From: Prochlorococcus sp. AG-412-P08
GTDB lineage: Bacteria > Cyanobacteriota > Cyanobacteriia > PCC-6307 > Cyanobiaceae
Assembly: GCA_003214695.1 (NCBI GenBank)
Contig: QCLI01000001.1
Span: 124,001 to 188,000, forward strand
Direction: 5' to 3'
Length of the DNA: 64,000 bases
Shown: one piece after another, positions 35,634 to 37,589 of the stretch
Layout: each line of letters opens with the position of its first letter
How positions within the stretch are numbered: position 1 is the stretch's first letter
Position numbers and translations under genes: made by a program
The notes under the pieces: model-generated
The model's input: only the letters and a program-made list of their open reading frames with translations
Told to the model about the DNA's origin: nothing
Database searches by the model: none

Positions 35634-35939
35634 GTGGTTACTGACAAGGCTCTACTCAAAGAGGTGACAAAAGAGCTCTGGCATTCAGTCAAGAAACTTC
35701 GTCCTGATCTTGGGAAAGACCCAAGGATGCAACTTGTCCTCAAAGCTCTTATTACCATTGGGGACCTTCCCAATCCTATAGAAGCAGCTATGGTAGTTGG
35801 AACATGCCTTGATATGGAAGAAGATGATGCATCTTCTCAATCCAAGGAGAAAGCAAGCTCAGCCACTAAGGGAAACTCCGAATCAGAAGAAACTCAAGAA
35901 GGAAGGAGGACTGTTCGTAGAAGATCTGCTGCCTCTTAG
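35634..35939 (+). CDS. Conserved-type hypothetical protein with charged tail
   Basis: 101 residues from GTG 35634. Residues 1-65 are mainly helical (LLKEVTKELWHSVKKLRPDL, MQLVLKALITIGDLPNPIEAA) and look like a folded domain; the rest is a Ser/Glu/Lys-rich disordered tail ending in RRTVRRRSAAS. No known family is recognised. The start could also be a little downstream; no ribosome-binding site was decisive. Confidence 0.7.
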   Translation: MVTDKALLKEVTKELWHSVKKLRPDLGKDPRMQLVLKALITIGDLPNPIEAAMVVGTCLDMEEDDASSQSKEKASSATKGNSESEETQEGRRTVRRRSAAS

Positions 35940-36073: not shown

Positions 36074-36238
36074 TTACTTTTCAAGAGAAGGGGTTGAAAT
36101 ATTACAAGACAACTCACATTCAGTTAATTCTTTATTTGTTAATCTTTCAAGGATTCTAGCTTTATCTATGGCTGATAATTCTCCATCTGAAGTCCATTTC
36201 AACGTAGTTTTACGCTGACGAGGGGAATTTTGCCTCAT
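36074..36238 (-). CDS. Unannotated 54-residue hypothetical protein
   Basis: Small ORF (54 residues) with an Arg/Lys/Gln-rich start, a TLKWTSDGELSAIDKARIL core and a C-terminal C41/C45 pair. It is preceded on its strand by GAGGAG eight bases before ATG 36238, a strong ribosome-binding site. That site overlaps the stop of the upstream small ORF (36244-36393), so the two are probably co-translated. No known family. Confidence 0.6.
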   Translation of the reverse strand: MRQNSPRQRKTTLKWTSDGELSAIDKARILERLTNKELTECELSCNISTPSLEK

Positions 36239-36243
36239 AGCCA

Positions 36244-36393
36244 CTACTCCTCACTTTTCAAGTGAACTTCTACGCAGCGAGTGACGCACTCTACCCTGTC
36301 ACTATCCAAGCTGCATGCTGTAACGCACTCAAAGTATGAATCAATCGCATCTGTCTGATCTCTTTGTAATGAATCGCTCATCCCTTTAGTCAT
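36244..36393 (-). CDS. Unannotated twin-CX3C mini-protein
   Basis: 49 residues with two CX3C pairs (C23-C27 and C36-C40) nine residues apart: FECVTACSLDSDRVECVTRC. Spacing and helical flanks suggest a helical hairpin or a metal/disulfide site. The start is ATG 36393 or the internal ATG 36381 (MSDSLQRDQ), which resembles small cyanobacterial proteins. It precedes the 54-residue ORF on the same strand, and its stop overlaps that gene's ribosome-binding site. The function is unknown. Confidence 0.65.
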   Translation of the reverse strand: MTKGMSDSLQRDQTDAIDSYFECVTACSLDSDRVECVTRCVEVHLKSEE

Positions 36394-36584
36394 TTTCTTT
36401 AATCAACATGGATGACACTTTTAGCACAAATCCCCCTAATTCGAAGCAATTCATTAATGAACATAAAGTACCTAAGTAATAATTACTAATAGAGAAATCT
36501 GCCATTTTTAGCATGTAAGACATATTTAATTTTTTTTGCCAAAACTTAAATCAACGGCAAGATTAAGTAAAAGCCATAGACGTC

Positions 36585-37589
36585 TTGTCAAAAGAACTAA
36601 CAGAAACAGTAAAAGAGCTGATGATTCTTGGCTGGTCAGAAGAAGGGGCTCAAGGTTATACAGATTTAATTAAGAATAACGGCCTGGATTTTTTCTCATC
36701 CGATCAATATGACTTACCACTAATATTATTTTTATTATTTCTTATTCTTATAATATTCATATCAACAGTATTACACCTAAGTAAAGCAAGAAAAACATCT
36801 TTACCTAAAGAAAATCCTAAGTCTGTAGATAGTCTTGGCTCTAAATACAATCTTTCAGGAAAACCACCTTTTACTAATCAAAAGAAACCTGGCTTAAATC
36901 CCGTAGGGGAGGTGGGAGAAAAACTAAACTCACTCCCTATTGTCAACAGTAGCAATATAAAGCAGTTAATTAAAGCTATTGAACCTCTAAAGGAAAATCG
37001 GCAGAAGCTAGTTCAAGCTATTGAACCCCTAAGGGAAAATGGGCAGAAGTTAGTTCAAGCCATAGTACCTTTAAAAGAGAATGGAGCTATCACTCCCAAA
37101 ACTATTAGAAAAGTTTCCATCAGCAATCTAAACAGTAATTTAGGAAAACTTTTTAGAGAAACTTCTATAGACTTAGATAAGACTGCGGAAATCTTCATAC
37201 TTACGTTTATTATTATATATGATTTATCAATAGAGTTAATACAGGTATCTATTAAAAGCTTGCTAAAAAAAACGAATACAAGTATTAATCCAATTGAAAA
37301 GATAACCTCTAACAATCAAACTAGAAGTAATGATATTGAAGATGGAGGCAATGTTTCAGGAGAAGAACTCTTAAAAAGACTAAGCAGGCCTCAATTAATA
37401 AATTTAATTAATTCCAACCCATCAACATTAAAAAAGCTTAATTTCAAAGAAAGGGAGAAAGAATTAATGGGAAAAACTAATATTGAGCTTAAGGCTATGC
37501 TGAAAGGAGAGGTTAACATATCTAGACTAAAGAAGAAAGAACTTGTTATGAAGATTATGTCTATAGAAAAAAGTAAATTGATAGGGTAA
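36585..37589 (+). CDS. Membrane protein with 14-residue tandem repeats and SAP-like C-terminus
   Basis: 334 residues, TTG start, very AT-rich. A helix at about 44-65 (LILFLLFLILIIFIS) anchors it, a second hydrophobic stretch lies near 203-220, and three 14-residue repeats at 127-168 (QLIKAIEPLKENRQ, KLVQAIEPLRENGQ, KLVQAIVPLKENGA) form an amphipathic helical region. The C-terminus (LKAMLKGEVNISRLKKKELV) resembles SAP/HeH DNA-binding motifs. No known family; probably lineage-specific. The 191 bases upstream separate it from the divergent twin-CX3C gene. Confidence 0.7.
   Translation: MSKELTETVKELMILGWSEEGAQGYTDLIKNNGLDFFSSDQYDLPLILFLLFLILIIFISTVLHLSKARKTSLPKENPKSVDSLGSKYNLSGKPPFTNQKKPGLNPVGEVGEKLNSLPIVNSSNIKQLIKAIEPLKENRQKLVQAIEPLRENGQKLVQAIVPLKENGAITPKTIRKVSISNLNSNLGKLFRETSIDLDKTAEIFILTFIIIYDLSIELIQVSIKSLLKKTNTSINPIEKITSNNQTRSNDIEDGGNVSGEELLKRLSRPQLINLINSNPSTLKKLNFKEREKELMGKTNIELKAMLKGEVNISRLKKKELVMKIMSIEKSKLIG
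36963..37088 (+). repeat. Three tandem 42-base repeats in the membrane-protein gene
   Basis: Three consecutive units encode the 14-residue repeats of the gene at 36585-37589 (residues 127-168). The units differ at third positions and by single residues (Glu to Val, Lys to Arg), so the repeat is old rather than a recent slippage product. Confidence 0.75.

Follow-up and report, generated by a model that had tools for sequence, protein, structure and literature searches.

We identified a two-gene minus-strand operon at 36074-36393 of the window, the 64,000-nt stretch of DNA analyzed here (C1:124001-188000 of a 1.55-Mb genome), whose first gene, ORF1, encodes a small twin-CX3C protein that is nearly universal in the window's bacterial family and appears to be homologous to a common protein of T4-like cyanophages. 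Tentatively, as it falls somewhat short of probable, we read ORF1 as a thiol/disulfide switch protein with a coupled partner, ORF2, and as a hijackable regulator that would work like CP12. The features of the locus are as follows:

36244..36393, minus strand: ORF1 (C module), 49-aa twin-CX3C protein
36074..36238, minus strand: ORF2 (B module only, short form), 54 aa, QRKTTLKW...DGELS.ID.ARIL.RL...LTECELSC
36247..36254, minus strand: ORF2 ribosome-binding site GTGAGGAG (GAGGAG), within the last ORF1 codons, ending 8 nt before the ATG
36463..36488, minus strand: conserved upstream element TAGTAATTATTACTTAGGTACTTTAT, common to ORF1 paralogues
36419..36428, minus strand: putative -10-like box TGTGCTAAAA, ~35 nt behind the element

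Among 11 genomes of the window's genus with window-type pairs (55 comparisons, conserved codons only), pN/pS was 0.147 for ORF1 (33 codons) and 0.086 for ORF2 (36 codons), and the other two forward frames gave 1.09 and 1.80 for ORF1 and 1.09 and 3.83 for ORF2 over the same codons. Purifying selection acts on ORF1 and ORF2 in their own frames only, confirming that both are real genes. Together with family-wide orthologues and an adjacent pair in 12 of the 14 genomes from this genus, this bears out the two-gene operon that the initial annotation had proposed. The GAGGAG site lies in the last ORF1 codons, and the ORF1 stop, a TAG at 36246-36244, shares a base with a GTG at 36244; ORF2 itself runs from an ATG at 36238 to a TAA stop at 36076-36074. 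The same ribosome-binding-site layout recurs in relatives, and we infer from the sequence that the two genes are translationally coupled. Pairing of the Yfr1 sRNA with GUGAGGAGU at the ORF2 start (36254-36246, minus strand), complementary to ACUCCUCAC, which we take to be the Yfr1 motif, was considered and dropped because some relatives do not keep this stretch. The text of PMC6778093, as far as it was available, did not contain that motif.

An Rfam scan of the window returned two tRNAs only, a search for an intrinsic terminator 3′ of ORF2 found none, and the folding of the stretch downstream of ORF2 was unremarkable (z 1.35). The operon is flanked by two frames on the plus strand: a divergent 334-aa frame (36585-37589) with tandem repeats of ~15 residues resembling QKLVQAIEPLREN and no Pfam match above the cut-off, and a convergent, conserved 101-aa frame (35634-35939) with a homologue at L085:3986-4291 and no Pfam family.

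Near relatives that carry a name are Prochlorococcus single-cell genomes (11 loci, best 94% identity). ORF1 orthologues were found in 48 of 79 relatives, comprising 48 of the 49 within the window's family and none of the 30 in other families. A 23-row ORF1 profile matched 381 of 400 genomes from the family; counting only those with at least 90% completeness, it matched 249 of 251. There were one to five copies per genome among the matches listed in this search, and three in the window's genome. When 386 genomes were drawn phylum-wide, the profile matched 60, of which 58 belong to the window's family; the two outside it (among at most 328 outside genomes) are short and marginal (E 0.005 and 0.007), so that, by profile search, the ORF1 family is convincingly present in no genome outside this family. 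ORF1 and ORF2 match no family in Pfam or NCBIfam at E ≤ 1, and searches of an open-access library of papers listed nothing on this family.

ORF2 matches 46 of the 79 relatives (45 of 49 in the family and one marginal match outside it, E 0.03), and the pair recurs across several genera. Among 68 ORF2 places (matches with E ≤ 3.5e-6, weaker rows dropped), ORF1 lies directly upstream on the same strand at 33, in 28 genomes, with gaps in two classes, 4-25 nt in 12 and 190-212 nt in 21. The other 35 places have no neighboring ORF1, and core-type ORF1 copies lack ORF2, which makes the partnership optional and counts against the switch reading. ORF2 carries its own CX3C, and its AlphaFold2 model is a single helix at 23-34 (pTM 0.46). 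In other genera, ORF2 is longer (109-130 aa), starts so as to overlap or abut the ORF1 stop, and consists of an N-terminal, cysteine-rich A module (GGSITCF..FRSCSR..C.YS.DLHSAK) joined to the B module that makes up the whole of the window's ORF2. Solitary B modules also occur, and one genome (L069) has the A module fused in frame to the twin-CX3C, or C, module. At locus L085, ORF1 and a long ORF2 lie near a homologue of the window's neighbor at 35634-35939, and the window's pair is therefore probably a short-form orthologue of that pair. A separate 70-76 aa protein lies ~700 nt behind ORF1 at six loci (L018, L020, L023, L024, L026, and L031), after the pair in several genomes; it ends in WDEECEEHPTNSHCKVYDD or similar, which resembles the CP12 C-terminus at a Pfam E of 0.075, below the cut-off.

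The cysteines of ORF1, at 23, 27, 36, and 40, are arranged as CX3C-X8-CX3C (CVTAC and CVTRC). Homologues that keep this spacing, which the initial annotation had called for as a check, do exist: none of the four cysteines varies among the 23 aligned ORF1 members, where D15, D18, Y20, F21, E22, H44, and L45 are invariant as well, and the cysteines are also kept in all 47 X8-type sequences, although that set had been selected by the motif. In 67 distinct host-side sequences, one of which comes from the viral contig L127, the loop has 8 residues in 47, 6 in 14, 9 in 3, and 10 in 3, and in 40 phage sequences it has 6 residues in 39 and 7 in one.

Using 12 orthologues, a shallow alignment, AlphaFold2 predicted a β-hairpin for ORF1 with strands 19-30 and 33-44 (pLDDT 76.9 overall, 94 and 92 in the strand blocks), in which C27 would face C36 and C23 would face C40. 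On the second strand, C, T, C, E, and H are kept across the 47 X8-type sequences and the intervening residues vary, a two-residue alternation that favors a β strand; the first strand, conserved along its whole length, says little either way. Foldseek returned 279 PDB matches for the model, a PDB profile search gave two matches at E ≤ 1 for ORF1, a venom peptide and desmoplakin (0.15 and 0.21), and PDB sequence searches gave no useful match. The shallow alignment, a pTM of 0.43, and the lack of any Foldseek PDB match at E ≤ 0.001 weigh against the switch reading.

The initial annotation had compared the protein with intermembrane-space-type folds, a comparison that is not supported; the redox or metal role that it also suggested may still hold. 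Mitochondrial small Tim and twin-CX3C proteins share the two CX3C motifs with ORF1, but they are α-hairpins with longer loops, whereas ORF1 is modeled as a β-hairpin with loops of 6-10 residues (6 or 8 in 61 of 67 sequences) and a second strand whose conservation alternates by two. Neither the modeled fold, its pTM being modest, nor the PDB profile search for solved members supports membership in this group. We also set ORF1 apart from NblD/NsiR6, a small cyanobacterial protein with two conserved cysteine pairs, by the motif as described in the part of PMC5126843 available to us, where the first pair is CPVC (CX2C) as against the CX3C pairs of ORF1.

ORF1, whose four cysteines and H44 do not vary among the 23 aligned copies, could instead be a small protein for zinc or another metal, bound by Cys4 and in some paralogues H44, that serves in storage, delivery, or sensing. 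H44, conserved in Prochlorococcus-type copies, thus also counts against the switch reading, as does the weak zinc hint given by HL genomes L071 and L074, where an ORF1 paralogue, in convergent orientation to a WD40 gene, lies behind a CobW/G3E GTPase gene. However, the histidine is missing from the core copies, no CobW gene was seen beside the other paralogues read, and the modeled cysteine pairs sit four residues apart along the strands, which would be too far for a single tetrahedral site, so we consider metal binding somewhat unlikely.

The core-type ORF1, which has a loop of 6 and neither the histidine nor an ORF2, lies directly behind a same-strand ABC-F gene, with an HtrA-like protease gene convergent, at 10 of 13 loci tested; both genes are absent beside it at the other three (L064, L067, and L098). 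This position hints at translation, again at the expense of the switch reading, and would suit a structural or adaptor peptide, for example of the translation or proteolysis machinery, in which disulfides stabilize only. Such a role is unlikely, as the linkage is missing in the window's genus, where the ABC-F and HtrA genes adjoin with no twin-CX3C frame between them (3 of 3 genomes), and phage copies are found among gp23, gp3, and uvsY. The ABC-F gene of the window's genome (G000:C9:3192-4904, L216) has one in-frame TGA, either a sequencing error or the mark of a broken gene.

The ORF1 paralogues share an upstream element, TAGGTACTTTA, which 29 of the 54 distinct ORF1-type sequences have ahead of them. 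It is flanked by a conserved TAGTAATTATTACT before it and a T-rich stretch with a TTAAY-like end behind it, and a TGCTAAA box follows ~35 nt past it in most; as the element was picked by its presence, it is only its flanks and spacing that count as independent evidence. A sigma-70 scan did not list the -10-like box TGTGCTAAAA. With up to two mismatches, TACTTAGGTACTTTAT occurs at two places in the window's genome, both exact and both before ORF1 copies, and since the reversed control also gave two, it is the exactness and position that carry weight and not the count. Across eight genomes, a 15-mer of the element (at most one mismatch) lay before ORF1-type genes at 12 of 14 places, with 7 for the reversed control, and within the 64-kb window a single match was found at up to two mismatches against 0.79 expected, which is not rarer than chance allows. 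LexA and NtcA were considered as identities of the element and dropped, as the spacing does not fit. Overlapping small genes, dispersed paralogues, and a private upstream element could also describe a multi-copy, toxin-antitoxin-like pair with its own operator. That is highly improbable, as ORF1 is near-universal and often without ORF2, solo ORF1 copies have the element upstream too, and no toxin or antitoxin family was matched in Pfam or NCBIfam (E ≤ 1).

Searches of phages with the single ORF1 sequence gave no match, a further point against the switch reading. The ORF1 family profile led to one viral contig, L127, whose protein matches phrog_665 at E 2e-5, as against 0.086 for the window's ORF1. 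This family (T4-GC 363, no assigned function) is a 50-aa cyanophage protein, D-Y-[YF]-E-C-x3-C-x6-C-x3-C-x-E-x-L, that is like ORF1 in this pattern and unlike it in its N-terminus (MHN...W.H) and in standing single; in the three phages viewed, its gene lies between gp23 and gp3, with uvsY also nearby and no ORF2 beside it. The main text of PMC3037559 does not take up T4-GC 363. The phrog_665 profile matches phage P-SSM7 at E 4.7e-23 and, in the window's genome, nothing but the three copies of ORF1 (E 0.003-0.087); it also weakly matches 2 of 14 control genomes. At E ≤ 10, the P-SSM7 protein PSSM7_131 (T4-GC 363) matched 370 phage records; 362 bear the name Synechococcus, Cyanophage, Prochlorococcus, or Marine, and the remaining 8 are probably due to chance. 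Of 181 stretches in viral contigs, 168 encode a relative, and 80 were kept.

Comparison of the host and phage ORF1 profiles gave 95.9% in hhalign with a score of 35.2, which none of 200 alignments with the cysteine columns fixed and the other columns shuffled could reach (largest 25.2). The top 16 matches of the phage profile were all ORF1-type, from 16,726 sequences (8363 host segments and their reversals) with 32 ORF1-type present. These profile comparisons indicate that phrog_665 is homologous to ORF1 beyond the cysteine columns and belongs to the same superfamily. Among 35 candidate stretches from T4-like viral contigs, 12 carry the B module of ORF2, and the phage and host modules align at hhalign 99.2% over 36 columns. 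In L117, the neighbors of the B module are gp32 and a DUF1825 gene, and in P-SSM7 (PSSM7_229) it lies near psbA and ferredoxin. An overlapping small ORF, MSGD...RWRxxSxxQE, follows the phage B-module gene in L115-L120, L124, and L125, and in the 91-aa PSSM7_229 the two parts are joined in one protein. The initial annotation had held both genes too short to be called normally; phage homologues of similar length do carry an annotation, as hypothetical proteins.

In manner, ORF1 comes closest to CP12, a small protein with two cysteine pairs, which the parts of PMC7760959 and PMC3037559 available to us describe in cyanobacteria and their T4-like phages, the former reporting that cyanophages express it in their hosts. 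Its pairs lie at the two ends of the protein, whereas those of ORF1 fall within one short hairpin, and ORF1 is not CP12 by the Pfam test, as neither it nor ORF2 matches PF02672 at E ≤ 1.

The switch reading draws on the invariant cysteines, the near-universal ORF1, the low pN/pS, and the ORF1-ORF2 adjacency in two gap classes, as well as on the A and C fusion, the predicted β-hairpin with its period-2 conservation and even loops, the private upstream element, and the phage homology of ORF1 and the B module. In the mechanism that we infer, which extends to the disulfide chemistry, the physical partnership, the target, and phage use, the hairpin strands would be joined by two cross-strand cysteine pairs, most likely C23-C40 and C27-C36 as modeled, reduced and oxidized ORF1 would bind a cellular target differently, ORF2 would act with ORF1, and the phage would use the switch to steer the host. 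A wider and more doubtful proposal is a modular signaling system confined to picocyanobacteria, with modules A (GGSITCF..CSR..C), B (LKW..GELS..D..RIL), and C (the twin-CX3C β-hairpin) and a promoter element dedicated to it. T4-like cyanophages would keep module C very widely, and some of them module B, in order to take over an uncharacterized host thiol switch.

In conclusion, the most abundant photosynthetic lineage keeps, in 249 of 251 good genomes, a protein that has relatives in ~360 records of its phages and is unnamed in Pfam and NCBIfam, and the shared upstream element (TTATTACTTAGGTACTTTAT) offers a direct route to the regulator of ORF1. If ORF1 is a thiol switch, it would join CP12 as a second small cysteine regulator exploited by phages in their hosts.
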